A DNA stretch of 38,370 bases from a virus, in the IMG/VR virus record IMGVR_UViG_3300022562_000164, positions 1 through 38,370 of that record. One strand, 5' to 3'. The position numbers were made by a program, and so were the translations under genes. This document shows positions 2,504 through 38,370 of this stretch, in pieces. The notes beneath the pieces were generated by a model. It worked only from the letters and a program-made list of their open reading frames with translations, had not been told where the DNA came from and did not search any database. Each line of letters begins with the position of its first letter. Position 1 is the stretch's first letter.

Positions 2504-2809
2504 TTAGAACCCAGCCTCCTTCTCGCTATCGCATTCGTCGTAGTCTACGACAGCCTGTTCAGTGGCAGTGCCCGTCCACTTCCATTTGTAAGTACCAACC
2601 TGAGCAAGCGTAATCAGAACGTAGTACACGCCCACGCCAGACTTCACCAACTCTGCGTCGGTACCGTAAACATATGTAGTCATCGTCCCGTCGGGGGCGC
2701 GGACCACAACGGATACGGCCAACGGGTCAACGACAGTGCCCGTGTCCGGGTCCGTATAAGTTACTCTGGCCCGGATGATTGAGCCATTGCCGAAGATTGC
2801 CCTAGCCAT
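2504..2809 (-). CDS. Small Ig-like virion/tail-associated protein
   Basis: A 101-residue, beta-rich protein. It reads as one sandwich domain: paired strands around VVDPLAVSVVVRAPDG, a TYVYG strand, and a GTYKWKWTGT strand. Such single-domain proteins are common next to tail-fibre genes in siphophages and are assumed to be virion decorations or fibre accessories. The start overlaps the stop of the 57-repeat fibre gene (TAATG, 2807-2811) and the stop abuts the endolysin start, so it is expressed with both. No enzymatic motif is seen. Confidence 0.6.
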   Translation of the reverse strand: MARAIFGNGSIIRARVTYTDPDTGTVVDPLAVSVVVRAPDGTMTTYVYGTDAELVKSGVGVYYVLITLAQVGTYKWKWTGTATEQAVVDYDECDSEKEAGF

Positions 2810-5800
2810 TATGGTTTCTCCAACCTAGACTTCAACGACCGGCTCGTGCCAGTCGTGGTGCTGATGGTTCCGATTACCGTCATGTCGATGCCGACCGCGA
2901 CCTTATCGGTCGAAGTCCCGAGCGTAGCCTTATCCCGGCTAGAGCCGAGCGTGCCGCGTACGTCCGTTGAACTGTTAATCCGCTTGGTCGCGGACGGGTT
3001 TGTAATGTAAGCCGATGCGGTGAACGACCCTGCGACCGTGGCTTGCAGGTGAGCATCCACCGAGAACGAGCCGCTTGCCGTGGCGAGAATGTATGCGTCA
3101 GCCGTAACGGCGGCAGAGGTCGTCTGCTGCACGTAGGCATCTGCCGTAAACGCAGCGGCAAGCGTTGCCTTAATGTTAGCATGCGCCGCAAACGTATTAC
3201 TAAACGTATTACGGATGAACGCATCGGCGGTAAAGTTTCCAGCGTAGATGCGCTGGATATCTGCATCTGCGGTGAACGACCCGGACAGGGTGTTCTTGAT
3301 GAAGGCATCTGCCGTGAAGTTACCGGCTACCGTGCCCTCGACCGCAATCCAAGCGTCTGCCGTGAAGGAGGCAGCGACGGTAGCGGCAATGTTTGCGTCT
3401 GCCACAAACGCGCCGGGGTACGTTACGGCAACCACCGCGTCGGCGGTGAAGGTTCCGGCAGTCGTCTGCTTGACGTAAGCGTCTGCCGAGAAGGAACCAC
3501 TCAGGGTATTCTGAACGTAAGCGTCTGCCGTGAAGTCGCCGGTCACCGTGCCCGTAACGGCAATCTCGGCGTCCGCCGTGAAGGACCCGGCAATCGTGGC
3601 GGCAATGTGAGCGTCGGCAGTTACCGTACTCTGGTAGGTCTGCTTGACGTAAGCATCCGCAGAGAACGAGCCGGTGAACTCACGCTTGACGTGGGCATCG
3701 GCAGTGAACGTACCGGGGTACGTAATCGCACCCTCAGTTACGTCCATCGACCAAGTGGCTGACCAGTCAGTCCACGAGGCCACGTCGATTACGGCATCGG
3801 CAACGAACGTCCCGCCGTAGGTCTTAGAAACAATGGCGTCGGCGGTGAACGTCGAGGCGATTGTCTTCTTGATGTGAGCATCTGCCGTGAAAGTTTCCTG
3901 CCAGATGCGCAGGACTTCGGCGTCTGCCGTGAAGGAGCCCGGCTGGACGACGAGGATTTCAGCATCAGCAGTGAACGACCCAGCGTACGTCTGCTTGATA
4001 ACCGCGTCGGCCGTGAATGCCCCGGCGATGGTCGAGGCAATGTGGCCGTCGGCAGTGAAGGCCCCGGCGACCGTCTGCTGGATGATGGCATCCGCAGTAA
4101 AGTTACCAGCGATGGTCTTCGCGATGTTCGCATCGGCCGTGAAGGAGGACTCGACCGTAGCGCTGATGTTTGCGTCCGCAGTGAAGGAGCCTTCGACTGT
4201 TCCTTCGGTCAGGATATAAGCATCAGCCGTGAAGGTCCCAGCCACCGTGCTGCTAATGTGCGCATCGGCAACGAACGACTGCTCAGTCGTCTTCTGGATG
4301 GTGGCATCAGCAGTGAAGGCGCCAGCCCACGTCCGAAGGATTTCCGCATCCGCAGTAAACGAACCCGCGTAGGTCTGCTTAATATCTGCGTCAGCGGTGA
4401 AGGCCCCTGCGTAAACCTGCTGGATGAAAGCGTCTGCCGTTACGCTGCCGCTGAAAGTCTTCTGGATGAAGGCGTTGGCGGAGAACGAGGACTCAAACGT
4501 CCGAGCGATATGAGCGTCCGCAGTAAAGTTACCGAAGACGCCGCCCTGAACGTCCATGCTCCAAGTATCAGACCAAGCCGACCAGTTGGCCGGGTCGATG
4601 ATAGCGTCAACGGTGAAGGAGCCGGGCGTGGTCTTGGCGATGGTGGCGTCTGCCGTAAACGACCCGGCGGCCGTCGTAGCAATGTAAGCATCGGCCGTGA
4701 CAGCACCGGCAATCGTGGCCTGCACGGTAGCGTCCGCCGTGAAGGTGCCCTCGGTGGTCTTTGCGATGTGGGCATCAGCCGTGAACGTACCGGAGAACGA
4801 GCGGGTAATGTCTGCGTCAGCAGTGAACGTGCCACTTGTCGTCAGCAGGATATCCGCATCGGCGGTGAACGTGCCAGCAACCGTGTTCGTAATGTTAGCG
4901 TCTGCGGTAAAGGAACCAGCGACCGTCTTGCTGATATGAGCGTCTGCCGTGAACGAACCACTGACGCTATTGACGATGTTGGCGTCCGCAGTAAACGACC
5001 CACTGACCGTGTTGAAGATGAAGGCGTCTGCGGTGAATGCCTGCTCGACGGTCTTAAAGATGTGGGCGTCTGCCGTGAATGAGCCGCTAGAAACGGCCAG
5101 AATATTCGCGTCGGCAGTAAACGTGCCAGCGTAGGTGTTCTGGATTTCGGCGTCCGCTGTGAATGTTCCAGCCGCCGTGGTAGAGATATGAGCGTCAGCG
5201 GTCAGGCTGCCCTGCGTCGTCTTCTGGATATAGGCGTCGGCCGTCAGGGAGCCAGAGAAGGTACGCTTGATATAAGCGTCGGCCGTGAAGTTGCCAATCT
5301 GCCCGGTCTGCACGTCCATCGACCACGTTGCCGACCACGTTGACCAGTGGGCAGGCTCAATGATGGCGTCGGCAGTAAAGGTGCCGGGGTATGTGGTGGA
5401 GGCAGAGCCAATCTCAGCGTCGGCAGTGAAGGTGCCAGAGAAGGTATTTGCAATGTGGGCGTCTGATGTAAACGAGCCGCCGACAGTTGCAAGAATGTAA
5501 GCGTCAGCAGTGAACGTCCCGCTGGTCGTCTTCTGAATGTAAGCGTCAGCGGTAAATGAGCCCCCTACGACAGTCAGGGACTGGACCGCGACTTCGATTA
5601 CACCCTGCGAGACAAGAGCGTTCCTGTTGGCCGCTCCGACCACGGACTCGATAACACCCTGAGCGACGGAAGCGGGCGGCGCGCTGCTCTTGACGGCCGC
5701 CTCGGTGACGGCCTGAGAGACATACCCAAGGGCTGTACTACCAGTCAGTTCCTTGCTGAACGCCACGAACACCGGGTCGAGGATGGACGGGCGGGTCGTC

Positions 5801-7566
5801 GTGGCAGCCGAAGACTGACGATGGTCGTAGTTGATGGTGCGCGACGCCCCGGACACGAACGGAACCACGTCCATGAGCGTCCACGGAGTCTCGTCGCTGG
5901 CGTCCCAAGCGCCGCCATCTGGTGCGTTGTTGAGGAACGGGTCTTCGACAACTCGCAGGTCGTCAAGGCTGCCGCCCAGCGCGCCCTCGTCGTCAAAGCA
6001 TCCGTACAGACCGACCTTGCCACTCGCTGTTTGAAGCGCGGCGGTCGAGTCCGACGTAGCGAGCGCCGGGGTGAACCCGGTGTCGGTGAACGTCGTCCGC
6101 AGGGCGTCCTGCGTGCTGGCCGAGAACACGATGAGTTCGGTCGGGCTCTGGCTGGATGCATAAATGCGGAACCACGGTCCGGCACCGGCAGCCCCAAGAC
6201 TCGTCTGAGCGCCGGAGGCCACGCGGTACAACGTGGCCGTTGCTCCGGTCTGGAACAACTGGTAAGCGTTGTATGACGACCCGGCCCCGGTCCACCGGAG
6301 CATGACTCCGGTCCCGTCGCCAACGGCGTTCATCTTGAACTCGATGTAGCCGTCGCCCATAGTCACGCCGGACAGGCTCGCCGCAGCGTACCCGAAGGCC
6401 GCCGAGCCTCCGACAACATGGGCTACATCGGTCGAGCCAACAACCTCCCAGCGGACCGAAGCGTCACCAGTGTAGAACTCATGCGTCCACGACTGCCCAC
6501 TGTCGGCGGTATGGGACGACAGGTTGACGGTCGATGCCTCGGTGAACGTGTCACGGGCTTTCAGCGTGCCGGGGTAGTCGTACAGCCCATTCCCATCCGG
6601 GTTGATTTGGAGGCTGTGGATTACGTCGGGGTTCTGGTCTGAGCCGTAGTCCTCAGTGACGTGGGAGAGGACGAAGTAGTCCTGCGAGGCGGACGGCGTG
6701 AACGAGGTCGTCCAAGCGTTCTGCCATGTGTCGAGCGCCGTCAACTGGTGGTCTGCCGGGGTCGCGATATGCGAGTCGGCAAACTTTGACAGGTTGATAG
6801 CGAGGACGCGGGACGACAGGAGCGTCGAGACAAACGACGACGAGGACTCCATCGAGCCCTGCACCTTGACGGTGTGGCTGGCGTTCGTCGGCGTGTTGGC
6901 CCAAACGAGCAGCCGGTTGCGGTACTCGTTGGCCGGGTCCTCGCCCTCTTCCGATACCTGCTGGACTACCCCACCGTCGTAGAGCAGCGTGTGGAACGTC
7001 TGCTGGTTCGGGGTGTTGGTGGTGGCGTCGTCTGTCGGATGCCACGTTACGTTGGCGATGTACAGGTACTTATCGGTGCCGTTCGGGGTGAATGTTACGC
7101 TGGCCCCGTCAGTCGGCGTCGTTGACAGAGTGTGGTCTGTCGTGTCTTCGCTGTACCAGTAGTCGGTGTTCTGCGTCCCGATGTCGTCGAGGTTGATGGC
7201 GACAATCTTCGCCCCTCGCAGGATGGCCTCCTGAGAGGTGGTCGAGGAGGCGTACTCAAGCGTGACGGCCTCGGTCGTCCCGGGCTGCGTGTAGACCGCC
7301 ATGAACCCGACCCCGACGACCTTGTTGCCGAGTACCTCGTCGGCCTCATAAGCGTCGGTGAACTGGGTCGGGGTCGTGCCGTGGACGAGCCGAACCAGTA
7401 CCTCGTCGGCGGACCCCGACAGCATCGTGTGTGCGACCGCGAGGATGAGGTACTTGTCGCCAGCCGTGAACGACCCGGCCGGGATGGAGGTTGCTTCATG
7501 CCACGCGGTGGAACTTAGCGTTTCCTTCTTGCCGGATGATGCGGTTAGGATTTGCGCCTGCGCCAT
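2809..7566 (-). CDS. Giant tail-fibre-like protein with 57 tandem 14-residue repeats
   Basis: 1585 residues. Residues ~1-330 hold two related beta domains with strands such as DKYLYIANVTWHP and QDYFVLSHVTED. Residues ~330-560 look like a concanavalin-type lectin domain (starts TFTEASTVNLSSH). Residues ~560-667 include short repeated Ala/Val/Gln segments (VSQGVIE). From residue ~669 to ~1526 come 57 back-to-back copies of a 14-residue unit with consensus G-S/T-F-T-A-D-A-x-I-x-x-T-x-x. Three units carry a Trp-rich insert (WSMDV). The C-terminus is a Ser/Thr-rich cap of about 60 residues. The repeats suggest an elongated beta-solenoid or trimeric fibre shaft; that is inference. An AAGGGA site lies about 10 bases before the ATG. 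Position between lectin-like genes and lysin supports a host-binding virion protein. Confidence 0.8.
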   Translation of the reverse strand: MAQAQILTASSGKKETLSSTAWHEATSIPAGSFTAGDKYLILAVAHTMLSGSADEVLVRLVHGTTPTQFTDAYEADEVLGNKVVGVGFMAVYTQPGTTEAVTLEYASSTTSQEAILRGAKIVAINLDDIGTQNTDYWYSEDTTDHTLSTTPTDGASVTFTPNGTDKYLYIANVTWHPTDDATTNTPNQQTFHTLLYDGGVVQQVSEEGEDPANEYRNRLLVWANTPTNASHTVKVQGSMESSSSFVSTLLSSRVLAINLSKFADSHIATPADHQLTALDTWQNAWTTSFTPSASQDYFVLSHVTEDYGSDQNPDVIHSLQINPDGNGLYDYPGTLKARDTFTEASTVNLSSHTADSGQSWTHEFYTGDASVRWEVVGSTDVAHVVGGSAAFGYAAASLSGVTMGDGYIEFKMNAVGDGTGVMLRWTGAGSSYNAYQLFQTGATATLYRVASGAQTSLGAAGAGPWFRIYASSQSPTELIVFSASTQDALRTTFTDTGFTPALATSDSTAALQTASGKVGLYGCFDDEGALGGSLDDLRVVEDPFLNNAPDGGAWDASDETPWTLMDVVPFVSGASRTINYDHRQSSAATTTRPSILDPVFVAFSKELTGSTALGYVSQAVTEAAVKSSAPPASVAQGVIESVVGAANRNALVSQGVIEVAVQSLTVVGGSFTADAYIQKTTSGTFTADAYILATVGGSFTSDAHIANTFSGTFTADAEIGSASTTYPGTFTADAIIEPAHWSTWSATWSMDVQTGQIGNFTADAYIKRTFSGSLTADAYIQKTTQGSLTADAHISTTAAGTFTADAEIQNTYAGTFTADANILAVSSGSFTADAHIFKTVEQAFTADAFIFNTVSGSFTADANIVNSVSGSFTADAHISKTVAGSFTADANITNTVAGTFTADADILLTTSGTFTADADITRSFSGTFTADAHIAKTTEGTFTADATVQATIAGAVTADAYIATTAAGSFTADATIAKTTPGSFTVDAIIDPANWSAWSDTWSMDVQGGVFGNFTADAHIARTFESSFSANAFIQKTFSGSVTADAFIQQVYAGAFTADADIKQTYAGSFTADAEILRTWAGAFTADATIQKTTEQSFVADAHISSTVAGTFTADAYILTEGTVEGSFTADANISATVESSFTADANIAKTIAGNFTADAIIQQTVAGAFTADGHIASTIAGAFTADAVIKQTYAGSFTADAEILVVQPGSFTADAEVLRIWQETFTADAHIKKTIASTFTADAIVSKTYGGTFVADAVIDVASWTDWSATWSMDVTEGAITYPGTFTADAHVKREFTGSFSADAYVKQTYQSTVTADAHIAATIAGSFTADAEIAVTGTVTGDFTADAYVQNTLSGSFSADAYVKQTTAGTFTADAVVAVTYPGAFVADANIAATVAASFTADAWIAVEGTVAGNFTADAFIKNTLSGSFTADADIQRIYAGNFTADAFIRNTFSNTFAAHANIKATLAAAFTADAYVQQTTSAAVTADAYILATASGSFSVDAHLQATVAGSFTASAYITNPSATKRINSSTDVRGTLGSSRDKATLGTSTDKVAVGIDMTVIGTISTTTGTSRSLKSRLEKP
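2989..5562 (-). repeat. 57-unit tandem repeat (42-bp period) inside fibre gene
   Basis: The array is exactly 858 codons: 57 units of 14 codons plus 60 extra codons in seven longer units. Fifty or so units keep F-T-A-D-A almost unchanged in protein, while the DNA copies differ freely at third codon positions. Three Trp-rich inserts have their conserved WSMDV segment at about 5316, 4554 and 3744, giving spacings of 762 and 810 bp (17 and 18 units), which suggests an older higher-order duplication. Confidence 0.95.
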
Positions 7567-9080: not shown

Positions 9081-10310
9081 CTAGACTCCTGCCCTAACCC
9101 GGCGGTACCAGACGCCGGTCGTGAGTGGCGACTGCACGGTGTAGCGTGCCTGATTGCCAGCGTAGGTCGAAGCGACTCCGGTTGACGGTACGGCCACCCA
9201 GCCGCCGCTGCCGGTCTGGTCGTACTCCCAGCCAGTCTGGTCGATGTACGTCTTGAGCGAGCGGAGATTGCCGGTGTCGAAGGTGTTGGCCGTGTCAATC
9301 TCCATGTGGAAGTGGTAGTTGCCAGCCGGGCCGCTTGGGATTTCAAAGACGAGGACCGGGGTGGCGGAAACAGTCGCCGTATCGGCAGGCGAAACCCACG
9401 TCGGGTTGGACGGGGCAAGCCCCTGAATGTAAGCGTCAGCAGTAAAGTTACCGACCAACGTCGCCGTGACGTGGCTGTCGGCAGTGAACGAACCTTCGGT
9501 GGTCTTCTTGACGTAGGCATCCGCTGAGAAGTTACCAGCAATCGTAGAAAGGATTGTGGCGTCAGCAGTAAAGTTACCCTGAGTCTGCGTGCTGATGGCG
9601 GCATCAGCCGTGAAAGTATTGGCGGTCGTTACCGAAACGAAGGCGTCTGCCGTAAACTGCTGGGTGATGCCAACACGCTTGACGTTGGCATTCGCCGTGA
9701 AGGAACCCGGAATGGCGTTCCTCTTGATGTTGGCATTGGCAGTAAACGAACCATTGACCGTCGTGGCTCCAAGGTTGTAGGTACCGCTCAGGAACGCCTG
9801 ATAAACATTTGCGCCAACGGTATCGCCGCCCTTGGACCGGGTTCGGGTCCACTGGATTTGGACGATGGCTCCGTCCCATGCCGTCTTGTTTGCCGTCGTG
9901 TTGACGTAAGAGAAGCCGGTCGCAGACGAGTTGGTCGGCGTGGCGGTCGTGCCCGGTGTAGCAATCTGCTGGAAGGTGCCGCCAGCCGAAGCGGCTGCGA
10001 GGATGGTCGTTCCGTCAGAGCCGACCACTCGGGCGTCAAGGGTATCCCATGTCGAGTTGGTGACGGCAGAGGCCCAGCCGTAGCGGATGGTAATGGCGAG
10101 GGTCGCCATGGTGCCGAAGTCACCCGGCGTGTTGTCCATCGCACGGCCGTACTGATACGTACCGGACGTGTTCGTAGACTGACTATCGAACGTGGCGTCA
10201 CTGGCATCGGACAGCGCTGTTACGCCACCGGGGGACGAGATAATCGAGCCGGTCGTCGGCAGGCCAGTAACGTCTGCTGCTCCGGGGTATAGGGTAGGAA
10301 GCGTAGCCAT
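9081..10310 (-). CDS. Tail-fibre-like protein with eight 14-residue repeats
   Basis: A 409-residue protein. The N-terminal ~185 residues form a beta-rich domain with the segment AITIRYGWAS and a strand IVQIQWTRTR. Residues ~187-300 are eight units of the same motif found 57 times in the giant fibre gene, here with FTANANI, FTADAFV, FTADATI variants. The C-terminal ~110 residues look like a fibronectin/Ig-like domain (ATPVLVFEIPSG, YHFHMEIDTANTF, GVWYRRVRAGV). The shared motif implies common ancestry or co-assembly with the giant fibre. The start overlaps the upstream stop as TAATG (10308-10312). Role in adsorption is inferred from composition and neighbours. Confidence 0.75.
   Translation of the reverse strand: MATLPTLYPGAADVTGLPTTGSIISSPGGVTALSDASDATFDSQSTNTSGTYQYGRAMDNTPGDFGTMATLAITIRYGWASAVTNSTWDTLDARVVGSDGTTILAAASAGGTFQQIATPGTTATPTNSSATGFSYVNTTANKTAWDGAIVQIQWTRTRSKGGDTVGANVYQAFLSGTYNLGATTVNGSFTANANIKRNAIPGSFTANANVKRVGITQQFTADAFVSVTTANTFTADAAISTQTQGNFTADATILSTIAGNFSADAYVKKTTEGSFTADSHVTATLVGNFTADAYIQGLAPSNPTWVSPADTATVSATPVLVFEIPSGPAGNYHFHMEIDTANTFDTGNLRSLKTYIDQTGWEYDQTGSGGWVAVPSTGVASTYAGNQARYTVQSPLTTGVWYRRVRAGV
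9411..9752 (-). repeat. Eight-unit array of the same 14-residue motif
   Basis: Eight consecutive units, two of 15 and six of 14 residues (114 codons). The first two units have Asn instead of Asp (FTANAN). The array is in a different gene from the 57-unit array, about 3.8 kb away, and matches it in motif and period. Confidence 0.9.
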
Positions 10311-11846: not shown

Positions 11847-13619
11847 CTAACTACCGTCAGGCCAGAAGATGATGCCGTCAAGCGGCACATACCCGGTGCC
11901 ACCGGCCTCGGGGATGACTTGGCCGGAAGTCTCGATGTCAACACGTCCGGGTGCCGCGTTGGAATAAACCGAGTAGATGAGCGTCATCGCCGGTCGGAAC
12001 CCGCTTGGCAGGGTGAACGCCGCCGCAGCCGCCGTGCCGTTCTTGATGAGCCCGCGAAGGTGGACGAACCCGGCCGCATCCTTCATGTATGAAGCCGTCT
12101 GGAACCCGTTCCCGTAGTTGACCCATGAGTTCGTCAGGGTCGGCGCGGTCCAAGAGGTATTTGCTTGTGGTAGGAGAATGCGCCAACGCTGGCTGGTTCC
12201 ATCATAAACTGCCTCAACGCCGCCGCGCGGGGCAAGAGTTAGGTCCGCGTTACCCGGACAGAGGAAGCGGTTGGCCGCAGTGCTGCTGGCCGACTCATGG
12301 GCGAGAATGATGTCCGTTGCCGTGTTGACGTTGAACAGCCACAAGAAGATGCCGTGGTTCGGTGGAGCCACGATGCCGGTAATCGTGCGCACTGTCGAGT
12401 CGGTCGAAATCTTGATGGTGTTGGCAAGGTCAAGATTGGTCGGGTTCCAGTTGTTGGTGTTGGCTGACAGGGCAGTGGGGCTGATGGTGGAGTCGAAACC
12501 GACCCGGGAGTTGCTGCGACCGAGCAAGATGCGCGGCCCGGCACCGTCGTTGTATGTCCAACGAGATACTTCGACCGCCGACTCCGATGGCGTCGTGCCG
12601 GTGGCGTACAGGATGCGAAGGTCGTTGGAGGTGGTGGTCCCATAGTCCATGAGCCACTTGGCGTTCTGGCTGCTGTCGAGCCAGCGGAACGCCGCGTAGT
12701 CGCCGCTCCCGAAGGTATCGGTGGATGCGGCCTGAATGCGTAGCCGTGAGTCGGACGAGCGGTAGATGAACACGTCGCGCGACGTTGAGCCCGACCCAAG
12801 CCCAATGCCGACCGCTTCCTTATCGCCCATATAGCCGCCGACCCATCGCGCCGCAACGTCGCCCGCCCGGTTGGCGGCAAAGGCCGTGTAGTCCGTAGAG
12901 CCGGGGCTACTGTCACTGAGCAACCGGAACAACGGGTTGTTCGTGTTCGCTCCACCTGCGGCTTCCATGTACATCTGGTTGGCACCGTTTCGGTACAGGC
13001 GTACATCGCGGGTTGAGCCGGATGGTCCCCACTGCATCTCGCCAGTGTTCTTCATGGCGAAGGCGACGCTGGAAGCATTGAGGTTGGTCGGGTCAGTCAG
13101 CAGGACGTAGTTCGCGCCGCTCGCCCGGTAGATACGCAGTTCACCGAGAACGTTCCAAGCGTTAGCGTCACCGTAGTCGCCCTCGTCCATGACAACAGCG
13201 GCATAGGGCGAGTCCCAGCGGATATAAGAACTCGCCGCAGCAGTGCCGGGACCGAAGGCGACCGATGCCCTAACAGAGTCAACGAGCAGCGGCTTGTAGG
13301 CCGCTGGCACATTAACTTCCTCTACCCACCGCTCGTCAGTGTCGTAGTTGATGTTAACCTTTACAACGTCGCCGACGGTGAGGTATTGCGTTTCGGGGAT
13401 GCGAAAGCCACCCGACATGTAGGCCCCGTCGGTCTCGCCGTAGAGATAAGCCGACGCCTCGTGGACGCCAGCATCGACCTCACCGACCGTGCCCCATGTG
13501 CTAGAAATGCGGGCACCGTCTTTCAGGCGCCGCTCAATCCTCTTGTCGATTGCGGTGAGGATGCGAGTGGCGTCAGAGTGCAGCGATGGAGACTTAGGGG
13601 AGATTTCGCCGTCGGCCAT
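11847..13619 (-). CDS. Tail fibre / receptor-binding protein
   Basis: A 590-residue protein. The N-terminal ~110 residues hold an oligonucleotide/oligosaccharide-binding-like beta segment (QYLTVGDVVKVNI), expected to attach it to the tail tip. The central part is repetitive, with recurring strands of the type RDVRLYRNGANQMYM, RDVFIYRSSDSRLRI and NDLRILYATG, consistent with a fibre or spike shaft. The C-terminal ~110 residues (WVNYGNGFQTASYMKD, FVHLRGLIKNGT, FTLPSGFRPAM) match the receptor-binding tip found at the end of many phage fibres. Start overlaps the hub gene's stop (TAATG, 13617-13621). Good candidate for a host-range determinant. Confidence 0.75.
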   Translation of the reverse strand: MADGEISPKSPSLHSDATRILTAIDKRIERRLKDGARISSTWGTVGEVDAGVHEASAYLYGETDGAYMSGGFRIPETQYLTVGDVVKVNINYDTDERWVEEVNVPAAYKPLLVDSVRASVAFGPGTAAASSYIRWDSPYAAVVMDEGDYGDANAWNVLGELRIYRASGANYVLLTDPTNLNASSVAFAMKNTGEMQWGPSGSTRDVRLYRNGANQMYMEAAGGANTNNPLFRLLSDSSPGSTDYTAFAANRAGDVAARWVGGYMGDKEAVGIGLGSGSTSRDVFIYRSSDSRLRIQAASTDTFGSGDYAAFRWLDSSQNAKWLMDYGTTTSNDLRILYATGTTPSESAVEVSRWTYNDGAGPRILLGRSNSRVGFDSTISPTALSANTNNWNPTNLDLANTIKISTDSTVRTITGIVAPPNHGIFLWLFNVNTATDIILAHESASSTAANRFLCPGNADLTLAPRGGVEAVYDGTSQRWRILLPQANTSWTAPTLTNSWVNYGNGFQTASYMKDAAGFVHLRGLIKNGTAAAAAFTLPSGFRPAMTLIYSVYSNAAPGRVDIETSGQVIPEAGGTGYVPLDGIIFWPDGS

Positions 13620-14779
13620 TAGTTAAGTTTAATCTCTCGTAGCAACCGCAGGGTTTGCCGAGAACTTGAAAGCGGGATTGTGAAGGCTTTCAAGCGGTAG
13701 GTGTTGTCCAACTTTGAGAAGTCCGTTTCGCTAATCTTAATCACATCGTTACCCTCAAAGGCCGGGTTGCAAATAACCTCTAGGGTGATGTCTTCGTTGA
13801 CTAGAACATGCTTGTAGAACAAACTTTCGGCCACCTTGTCGGCGACCGTCTGAGAGCCAATGGTGTCATCCTCGTGGATGAAGACCCGCTCTCCAATCCT
13901 GTTTACGTTGGTAACGCTCTGCGGGTTGGTGTCAGAGATACGAGAGGTAACAATGTTCTCCTTGTCGGCAGTGCCGATGACCAGAACGGTATTGTAAAGA
14001 TTGTCATCCGTATAGGAAGCCTTAACGGTTACAAGGTTGTTGTTGGCCTCCGGGCCGTATGTATAGACCACGGCCGCGTCTCCGGGGCTCTTGAAGTCCT
14101 GCGTGGTCAGGAAGCCCAACTGGTCGAAGTAAATGTCAAGGTAGTTCCCGGTCGCCAAGCGGGCGAGGGCCTCGCCGCGATTGTCGCCCTGCTCTACACT
14201 GAACTTCCTCATGACTCGACGGTAGGTGTCGGTCCTCGACAGAAGCGGGTCTAGGTTGCGAAAGGTCAGCCCAACCTCGTCGCAGATATCCGCAATGATT
14301 GTATTAAGATACGTGTTTGCTGCCCATGACCGCGCCTTCGGGAAGACGCTCTTGCCCAACTTCTTCCACAGGTCAGAGCCAGAGAGGACGACCATGGACA
14401 TGCCGCGCTCGACCTCAACATCTGCCGAGTCGATAGCGAACACGCCAATAGGCACGACCTCTTCGTAGTCTCCATAGGCAATGCCACGCCAGAAGCGGAC
14501 CAGACGGTTAACGTAAAACGTCCCGCCGTACGCCCCGTCCGGCGACCAGATGCCATCTTTGTTGAGAACAGTAGCAGAAAACGTGCGCCGTGTCAACCGC
14601 GTAATATCTACGTCAACGTTGCCGTCAACAAGAATGTTCTCCGGGTAATCACCGATTAGGCCGGTGTCGTAGAAGGCAGCGATAGTATTCCAGTCCGTGT
14701 CGAGCACGTCCATCCGGATACGAACAGTGTGGCCTTGAGACTGTAGAGAACTCAGGAACGAGCCTGAAACCTTATACAC
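13619..14779 (-). CDS. Tail-tip hub / baseplate protein (gp27-like)
   Basis: A 386-residue protein in the place of the phage tail hub. It contains ILVDGNVDVDITRLTRRTFSATVLN near residue 49, a pattern of tail proteins with a T4 gp27-like beta-barrel, then VPIGVFAIDSADVE near 110 and a helix-rich middle (LNTIIADICDEVGLTF). The protein probably forms the ring that closes the tail tube and carries the fibres. It starts with GTG at 14779, overlapping the upstream stop as TAGTG. The call rests on pattern and gene order; no enzymatic domain is seen. Confidence 0.65.
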   Translation of the reverse strand: MYKVSGSFLSSLQSQGHTVRIRMDVLDTDWNTIAAFYDTGLIGDYPENILVDGNVDVDITRLTRRTFSATVLNKDGIWSPDGAYGGTFYVNRLVRFWRGIAYGDYEEVVPIGVFAIDSADVEVERGMSMVVLSGSDLWKKLGKSVFPKARSWAANTYLNTIIADICDEVGLTFRNLDPLLSRTDTYRRVMRKFSVEQGDNRGEALARLATGNYLDIYFDQLGFLTTQDFKSPGDAAVVYTYGPEANNNLVTVKASYTDDNLYNTVLVIGTADKENIVTSRISDTNPQSVTNVNRIGERVFIHEDDTIGSQTVADKVAESLFYKHVLVNEDITLEVICNPAFEGNDVIKISETDFSKLDNTYRLKAFTIPLSSSRQTLRLLREIKLN

Positions 14780-25649: not shown

Positions 25650-25751
25650 CTAAGCCTTCCTGAGCAACTTGCTGCGCTTCCGCTTCCGCGTCCGCAGCAG
25701 AGACCCAGCGCGATGCTCAGACCTGCGAGCACCTGCGGTAATCTTAGCCAT
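25650..25751 (-). CDS. Possible tiny basic protein
   Basis: A 33-residue frame, MAKITAGARRSEH then mostly Arg, Lys, Ser and Leu. Its ATG overlaps the end of the glycosyltransferase gene by 8 bp and its TAG directly precedes the connector ATG, the tight packing typical of this operon. A weak AGG is the only ribosome site. A longer version up to 25910 would overlap the glycosyltransferase by 167 bp and is less likely. Function unknown; it could be chance. Confidence 0.35.
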   Translation of the reverse strand: MAKITAGARRSEHRAGSLLRTRKRKRSKLLRKA

Positions 25752-27054
25752 CGACCTGAGCGGTAGATTTCGGCGGTTGTCCCGCATCATCAGACGCAGA
25801 CGAGAGAAGTAGCCCGGCCTCCGGCCCGGCTTCTTGCCACCTTTGACTTTCCTGTGCTGATAGGTCAATCCCTGACGCTGGCCGGGAGTGGACTTCCTTA
25901 ATCTTGGCAACTACGTAGTCCTCAAACACTGTCCAGTCGAAAGACTTGATTGCCTCCAAGCCTGCCGCCCGCATCTTGTTTCTCTTGCGCTCGTCCCGCT
26001 TGAGTGCCAGAATAACTTTGGCAATCTCTCGCGGCGCCACGTTGGCGTACTTGGTGCCGCTCTTATGGATTTCCCAATCGTACGGCTCAAGGCCGACGCC
26101 GCCACCAAGCCGGGCCACTTCCCAGCCTGCTCCGTACTTGGTGACGGCGACCGGCGTCCCACATGCCATGGCTTCCGCGATAGGGAGACCGAAGCCCTCA
26201 ATCTGGCTGGGTAGAACAAAGAGGTCAGCAGACCCAACGAGTTCTCGCAGCCCCGGAACATCTAGGTCTCCTCTTTCTGGAACACCCTTACCGAAGCCCG
26301 ACATGAGCGGATTAAATACGACCTCGCCGTCGAGGCCGAAGGCGGCAGCCACTTCGGGCAGGTTCCACCCCTCAAGCCAGTGCCCCTGAAACGGGACGGT
26401 GTGGAGGTAGAGAACGATGTCCTTCTGGTTGTACTTGAACTTGAGGATGGCCATCGCTTCGATGAGTCGCGTCAACTGCTTGCGCCGAACATTCTGCGCA
26501 ACGCAGGTCACGACAAACTTGTCATCCCAGCCCAACCGCTTGCGATAGGTCTGCCGCTCGTCGTCGTCTAGCGGCGTGAAGACCTCAGAGTTGACCCCGT
26601 GGTAGATGTAATCAATGTCTTTGTTGAGGTCACTCTTGGCGACCTGCTGGCCATACTGCGAGCAGGTGAAGAAATCAATATGGGAGAGAAGCGCTCGCCA
26701 CGTTGAGTTGATAAGAGGCTCTCCCTCGATTGGGACGTAAGCCAGAAACGGGACCTTGGCGGGAATAATCTGCGAAAGCGCTGCGATGCTTCCCGGCTCT
26801 CCCGTGGCGTAAATGACATCTGGCTGAAACTCGTCATCCTCAAATACCTTAATCCCCCGAACGATACCCATGGGGTCGTTCTTCTCGGGGACGAACTGGA
26901 TGATATCGAGGTCAGTCTCCTTCGGCTTCGACTGTAGCCCCGTCACCGACGCCACTGTCCAGCCCTGCCTTAGAAACGCTCTTACTGCGTGATTGTTTAC
27001 GCGGCCGAACCCCGTCAGCCCCACCGGGCTGTCCCCCAGCGTCAAGACCTTCAT
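25744..27054 (-). CDS. GT4-family glycosyltransferase
   Basis: A 436-residue GT-B fold enzyme. The N-terminal half begins MKVLTLGDSPVGLTGFGRVN, a sugar-acceptor-side Rossmann domain with a glycine-rich loop; YHGVN near 151 precedes the C-terminal domain. That domain has CVAQNVRRKQL (184-194), the nucleotide-sugar phosphate-binding segment, and the E-x7-E motif E286-GFGLPIA-E294, characteristic of family 4 retaining transferases. The start is set at 27054 because AGGAG lies 6-7 bases upstream; the longer frame to 27087 lacks this. It overlaps the upstream gene by 143 bp. Lying between capsid and connector genes, it may glycosylate virion or host-surface components; donor and acceptor are unknown. 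Confidence 0.85.
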   Translation of the reverse strand: MKVLTLGDSPVGLTGFGRVNNHAVRAFLRQGWTVASVTGLQSKPKETDLDIIQFVPEKNDPMGIVRGIKVFEDDEFQPDVIYATGEPGSIAALSQIIPAKVPFLAYVPIEGEPLINSTWRALLSHIDFFTCSQYGQQVAKSDLNKDIDYIYHGVNSEVFTPLDDDERQTYRKRLGWDDKFVVTCVAQNVRRKQLTRLIEAMAILKFKYNQKDIVLYLHTVPFQGHWLEGWNLPEVAAAFGLDGEVVFNPLMSGFGKGVPERGDLDVPGLRELVGSADLFVLPSQIEGFGLPIAEAMACGTPVAVTKYGAGWEVARLGGGVGLEPYDWEIHKSGTKYANVAPREIAKVILALKRDERKRNKMRAAGLEAIKSFDWTVFEDYVVAKIKEVHSRPASGIDLSAQESQRWQEAGPEAGLLLSSASDDAGQPPKSTAQVDG

Positions 27055-27313
27055 CAACTTCTCCTGCACTCTCGGTACTAGTGGCATTCAGTTCGGCCTC
27101 GGCCAGAGCCCTAATCTCGGTCAGTTCCATAGCCCTGCCGGTATCAGGGTCGCACCTGAACCCCAAGATGAATGCGCGGTCAAGCCAAGCGGGCCTATCC
27201 ACTGGCAGTTCGATTGTACCATACCGCACAACCGCACGACCGTCATAGAAATACTGCGTCCGGAGCGGGATATTACTTGGGTACAGATGCTTTAGAAAGA
27301 TTGTGTTGGCCAT
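26912..27313 (-). CDS. Hypothetical head-associated protein
   Basis: A 133-residue protein. The first ~75 residues are folded-looking (FLKHLYPSNIPLRTQYFYDG, RPAWLDRAFILGF); the rest is low-complexity, rich in Glu, Gly, Ala, Ser and Lys/Arg. Start at 27313 is chosen for the GGAGGT site 9 bases before ATG. The low-complexity tail is encoded by the same bases as the first ~48 codons of the glycosyltransferase. Directly downstream of the capsid gene, it may be a small head-joining or decoration protein, but no family is recognised. Confidence 0.6.
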   Translation of the reverse strand: MANTIFLKHLYPSNIPLRTQYFYDGRAVVRYGTIELPVDRPAWLDRAFILGFRCDPDTGRAMELTEIRALAEAELNATSTESAGEVDEGLDAGGQPGGADGVRPRKQSRSKSVSKAGLDSGVGDGATVEAEGD

Positions 27314-37850: not shown

Positions 37851-38370
37851 GCCGGTCTCGGAGCCCGCGAGAGGGGCCGCCGGTCGCGCTGCTATCGCCT
37901 GCTATCAGCCGACCGCCCGCCCGAGAGACCGCCCGCCACCCTCCGCCCGCCGCTCCGCCGGTCGCCTATCGGCCCACCACGAATGTGCGACCGCCCGCGC
38001 CGCCGAGACTAACGCATGCACATATGCGCATATGACGATATCCTCTGTGAGCCCGTAGAACGGCCGTAGAGCGGCGATGCGACGGCTCCCGCCCATTCGG
38101 TCTCGGCCCTACCGTTTCGGGCCGTGACGGCCGTTTCGTGCTCAGAGAGGGTAGGGTCTCACGCTCACGGCTCCGCCGAGCCGGACCCGGCCCGGACCGC
38201 CCGTCCGGACCGCGCCACGAGAGACCCGCCCGACCGGCCGCCGAGAGACCGGCCCGGACGGCTCCGGCTCCGGCCGACCCTCCCGCCGGAGCGGCTCCGG
38301 CCCGGCGCCGGACGGCTCCGCCCGGACCGGCTCCGCCCGGCTCCCGCCCGGCCGGGCCGACCGTCGGACC
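37851..38370. other. Extremely G+C-rich, repetitive non-coding end of the window
   Basis: The last 90 bases have only 11 A or T (about 88% G+C). GGCTCCG recurs many times and GAGAGACC followed by GCCCG-type bases occurs near 37923, 38220 and 38242. No gene or ribosome site is convincing. This differs sharply from the rest of the window. A perfect 14-bp palindrome CATATGCGCATATG lies at 38021-38034. It may be a contig-end artefact, a chimeric join or a real terminal/intergenic sequence. Confidence 0.7.

Follow-up and report, generated by a model that had tools for sequence, protein, structure and literature searches.

The window, i.e., the whole stretch of DNA analysed here, is a complete viral record of 38,370 bases. 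On its minus strand lie, in this order, genes for terminase, portal protein, and major head protein, a GT4-type glycosyltransferase gene inside the structural gene block (25744..27087), and genes for a tail protein, the tape measure protein, an Ig-domain minor tail protein, and the tail hub. After a fibre gene and some small genes comes the first of two repeat genes (9081-10310); two more genes separate it from the main repeat gene (2809-7566), beyond which lie a small gene and a lysin-like gene (1511-2503), the last being named by its look. The matches to terminase, portal, head, tape measure, hub, and minor tail proteins are found in order on one strand, and the array-bearing gene is the last before the lysin-like gene; this place in the tail module supports a virion protein built from repeats, as proposed earlier, its role in the virion being predicted. 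The syntenic anchor of the module is the tail hub gene (13619..14779, minus strand; phrog_1887, E 2.7e-43), whose product is 64% and 62% identical to the hubs of the uncultivated viral contigs L002 and L035, respectively. Array genes lie downstream of the hub in both, with about 30 strict cores in L002 and 40 in L035. Phages of Gordonia, Rhodococcus, Streptomyces, and Tsukamurella have distant relatives of the hub gene, a hint that the host is an actinobacterium. An exact short-peptide search with this gene returned no loci. The terminal stretch of the record (38200-38359) is very GC-rich and of low complexity, with short tandem repeats unlike the remaining sequence, and is perhaps an assembly artefact.

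The main repeat gene (2809..7566, minus strand) is a single open frame located between the tail-fibre genes and the lysin-like gene, and it encodes a protein of 1585 amino acids. The product is composed of an N-terminal head of 668 amino acids (5563..7566), the repeat array, which occupies residues 669-1526 and makes up the C-terminal half of the protein, and a C-terminal tail of 59 amino acids (2812..2988) ending in GTSRSLKSRLEKP. Compared by eye, the counterpart in L002 ends in VGRSLVGRTEKFS. Three similar beta, jelly-roll-like stretches can be discerned by eye in the head, with a LamG-like stretch inserted in the third; the head reaches the cut-off of no Pfam family and has no match in isolate phages. 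The second repeat protein (9081..10310, minus strand; 409 amino acids) carries a short array at about 9411-9752. Its C-terminal domain is common to L014 (44% identity), and a similar C-terminus is seen by eye in L001, where the counterpart of this gene apparently sits directly before the long-array gene. Strand, full gene, and second array are missing from the first-pass annotation. On the plus strand, an open frame of 402 amino acids (3874-5082) is nothing more than the array read in antisense.

Translation and core spacing bear out the 14-residue array of 858 codons and 57 units that had been described at 2989-5562 (minus strand), with the unit G-[ST]-F-T-A-D-A-x-I-x-x-T-x-x. Its 57 FTADA-type cores follow each other at 14 residues in 49 of the 56 intervals, the others measuring 16, 16, 16, 17, 30, 30, and 33 residues. 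Seven longer units, which had been counted in addition to the 57, are included in that number, since 50 x 14 + 158 = 858. When the array residues were shuffled 500 times, 1.1 cores were obtained on average (maximum 6) versus the 57 observed, and 0.004 in-phase pairs (maximum 1) versus 49. In the window, the consensus residues reach the following frequencies: G1 78%, F3 89%, T4 84%, A5 93%, D6 90%, A7 98%, I9 78%, T12 69%. At the level of DNA the repeat has decayed; pairs of units share a mean identity of 56%, and Tandem Repeats Finder detects only three short pieces of the array. Sharing of synonymous codons between units shows no excess over shuffles at any lag. From this low identity and the lack of excess codon sharing it follows that the array is old and has been kept by selection at the protein level rather than by recent copying. 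The array is real, old, under selection, and part of a predicted tail protein.

The regular series contains three divergent, W-type units, identified by motif search and alignment at 5312..5346 (WSTWSATWSMDV), 4550..4584 (WSAWSDTWSMDV), and 3740..3774 (WTDWSATWSMDV), all on the minus strand. Exactly three copies of the motif W-S-x-W-S-x-T-W-S-M-D-V are present, at 5312, 4550, and 3740, with none expected, and these positions agree with the 762 and 810 bp that had been reported between the Trp-rich inserts. A pattern search of viral contigs with the motif returned the copies of the window and no other viral contig, while looser W inserts are present in the arrays of L001 and L005. The inserts come after units 5, 22, and 40 and divide the array into blocks of 5, 17, 18, and 17 units. 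The suggestion of about three super-modules does not agree with this division; similarity at lag 17 (z 2.2) is not significant among 27 lags, no duplication is found at the codon level, and an origin by super-module duplication was rejected. In the multiple alignment WSMDV lands on FTADA, so that the insert is in register with the repeat and is more aptly described as a divergent unit whose turn is lengthened. The Trp-rich "joint" proposed in the first-pass annotation is doubtful for the same reason, and the AlphaFold2 model of the W region (pLDDT 57.5, pTM 0.42) is too weak to judge it by.

Relatives were retrieved by a DNA pattern of two FTADA cores placed 42 bases apart. The pattern matched 33 stretches of viral contigs which, together with the window, make up 28 records, all of them matched by the repeat profile, which puts the repeat in about 27 uncultivated viral contigs besides the window. 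Core spacings in the relatives are 14 residues in 442 of about 636 counted, 15 in 50, and 28 in 67. Several of the 28 records have more than one array gene. The heads, the tails, and the number of units of the array proteins vary; by eye, heads include, e.g., jelly-roll-like, LamG-like, and propeller-like sequences. At the C-termini of the array proteins of L021, L033, L007, L019, and L008, repeats of another, shorter class, about 10 residues long, were noticed (e.g., SLDVELRKP, SMTATAK). Among bacterial and archaeal genomes the pattern matched six contigs, only two of which bear an array. One is a Diapherotrites contig with the same array protein and the same contig size as viral locus L036, apparently a virus record binned with the archaeon; the other, L038, is a 4.8-kb contig of a Bacteroidetes MAG with a short, loose array. 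L039-L041 were rejected as unrelated or as carrying a different FTADAFE repeat, and L043 was rejected for having no in-frame array.

The array was not found in 50,697 isolate phage records as searched by tblastn, the low-complexity filter of which may mask such repeats, and it matched no family significantly in Pfam, PHROGs, NCBIfam, or the PDB sequences (best PHROG E 0.066). The earlier remark that the repeat is not recognisable as a described fibre family is upheld by these profile and sequence searches. A full-text literature search for FTADA yielded nothing relevant, and structural matches in BFVD were weak and uninformative. By hmmscan at E 0.1, the SufBD core profile of Pfam did not match the array. 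Bactofilin (PF04519) reached 24.9 bits against a cut-off of 27.9, with zero significant single stretches, and dispersed weak matches to other Pfam and PHROG families (GYF_2, ShlB, holin, and others) were dismissed as sums over many repeats, mostly lacking a significant stretch. The repeat family is new, uncatalogued, and common to uncultivated phages, while the kind of object is known.

For fold prediction, 12 consecutive units were submitted to AlphaFold2 as a monomer, with 21 other array segments serving as alignment. The model (pLDDT 72.7, pTM 0.69) has one strand per unit. Foldseek against the PDB gave a best E value of 0.096, which is not significant, for SufB/SufD. In VIA-align, the top five rows were all beta-helix cores of the SufB/SufD type (Z 11.7-13.8; 165-166 of 168 residues, rmsd 2.7-2.9), and the next row had Z 7.2. 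Either a beta-solenoid or a trimeric shaft had been suggested for the array; it is the beta-solenoid that fits the only confident model, i.e., the 12-unit monomer with its SufB/SufD neighbours. Two strands per turn, as in SufB/SufD, would imply turns of 28 residues each and, in place of a long trimeric shaft, a rod about 14 nm long. A turn of two units should leave a trace in the sequence, in that unit i would resemble unit i+2. Such similarity at lag 2 was obtained in a first data set (z 3.3-3.5), most strongly in L016, whose array (L016:332-2512) has a KKGKAQ turn at every second unit and gives the clearest two-unit period (z 3.9-4.4). The signal is absent in the array of the window and in a small set of 51 held-out units (z -0.5), and by contig it is positive in 12 of 20 (Wilcoxon p 0.31); a two-unit period is clear in L016 only and was not borne out as a general rule. 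Judged by one model of moderate confidence, the fold is most likely a short rod of stacked sheets.

The interpretation we prefer, at somewhat short of an even chance, sees in the repeat protein a structural component associated with the tail of an uncultivated, siphovirus-like phage and built as a solenoid rod with sugar-binding heads. The function is proposed from where the gene lies and from how the heads look, the binding of sugars being a putative property read from the sequence. According to the model, each 14-residue unit would contribute a short turn and a single beta-strand, F-T-A-D-A-x-I, in which F, A, A, and I share a face. About 60 strands (57 units and three of W-type) would stack into about 30 turns, resulting in a rod of 13-14 nm. 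This rod would act as a stiff spacer for beta-sandwich or LamG-like heads, placed at its end or inserted between units, which would bind sugars of the host surface; the number of units would set the length of the rod, and the heads would set the specificity. The W-type units may be divergent strands interrupting the regular stack every 17-18 units and may serve as docking patches.

A different architecture would be a trimeric fibre shaft of the triple beta-spiral type, about 75 nm long with W-rich interruptions. Triple beta-spiral shafts have a 15-residue repeat with about 13 A per repeat, and trimers are the rule for most phage fibres and usual for those built from repeats. The 14-residue unit comes close to that length, and the hydrophobic or small residues at positions 3, 5, 7, and 9 together with the conserved Gly 1 would suit such a shaft; however, the monomer already closes into a stack in a model of moderate confidence with a clear structural neighbour, and the alternate-unit turns of L016 would be unexpected of a one-repeat period. 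We regard the trimeric shaft as possible, though rather unlikely. Gene position is also where attachment to the head instead of the tail, as a decoration or neck fibre, has to be weighed. The portal gene directly follows the array gene in L017, and major head protein genes are found close to the arrays of L016 and L026; this neighbourhood of head genes makes a tail role uncertain for the repeat family as a whole. In the window, L002, and L035, on the other hand, it is the tail hub and fibre genes that precede the array gene, and an attachment to the head or neck appears clearly unlikely.

The array could also be a glycosylated shield, that is, a Thr/Ser-rich scaffold decorated by the glycosyltransferase of the phage itself. 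Thr and Ser account for 211 of the 858 array residues, and a phrog_2170 glycosyltransferase, the type encoded in the window at 25744..27087, is present in 16 of the 28 array records, against 2 of 30 in a comparison set picked with an arbitrary 15-mer. The p-value of this difference (Fisher p 3e-5; 2e-5 with near-identical lineages collapsed) overstates the case, since the array records share ancestry and are not independent. The phrog_2170 gene lies directly beside the array in several records, but in others it is next to the major head protein gene, whose product may be the substrate, and arrays of the KTFTADA type lack the enzyme. A shield of this kind is considered very unlikely, and no greater likelihood is assigned to the most elaborate combination, in which a virus-restricted solenoid with one strand per unit would give many uncultivated phages a length-adjustable monomeric stalk with exchangeable heads, glycosylated by the phage's own enzyme. 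If the solenoid rod proved true, a monomeric stalk of stacked sheets would add to the ways of controlling how far host-binding heads extend, and the 14-residue unit would be a designable module. The repeat also offers a handle on genes for receptor binding that go unnamed by current libraries in many uncultivated phages.

Among known systems, the triple beta-spiral shafts, exemplified by the adenovirus fibre, resemble the array in unit length, in the alternation of small and hydrophobic residues, and in fibre-like context, while the monomer model of the array is a solenoid. The SufB/SufD core, a flattened right-handed beta-helix, would share with it the predicted two strands per turn, with Z up to 13.8 (PMC6006206); there is, however, no sequence relationship, the array model is devoid of helical end domains, and no iron-sulphur role is implied. 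Bactofilin, likewise a beta-helix protein, gives weak profile matches to the arrays of the window and of L031 (30.1 bits in the latter), but these are sums over many repeats with no single significant stretch. In Mycobacterium prophage prophiGD02-2, gp102 (L102:1895-3115) combines TITGGxP repeats with a domain that resembles the head of the array protein in L031, and it shows the gene order minor tail protein, repeat protein, lysin; it differs in repeat sequence and in the order of its parts. The tail protein of Aeromonas phage BUCT552 (L101:3917-8347) has a C-terminal 14-residue PYNLR repeat (AELLAPYNLRSSVQ; 42 bp, about 15 copies), the unit sequence of which is unrelated to the array of the window. 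It was rejected as a relative, the BLAST match being antisense to the tail gene, and would serve instead as a cultured analogue for experiments.
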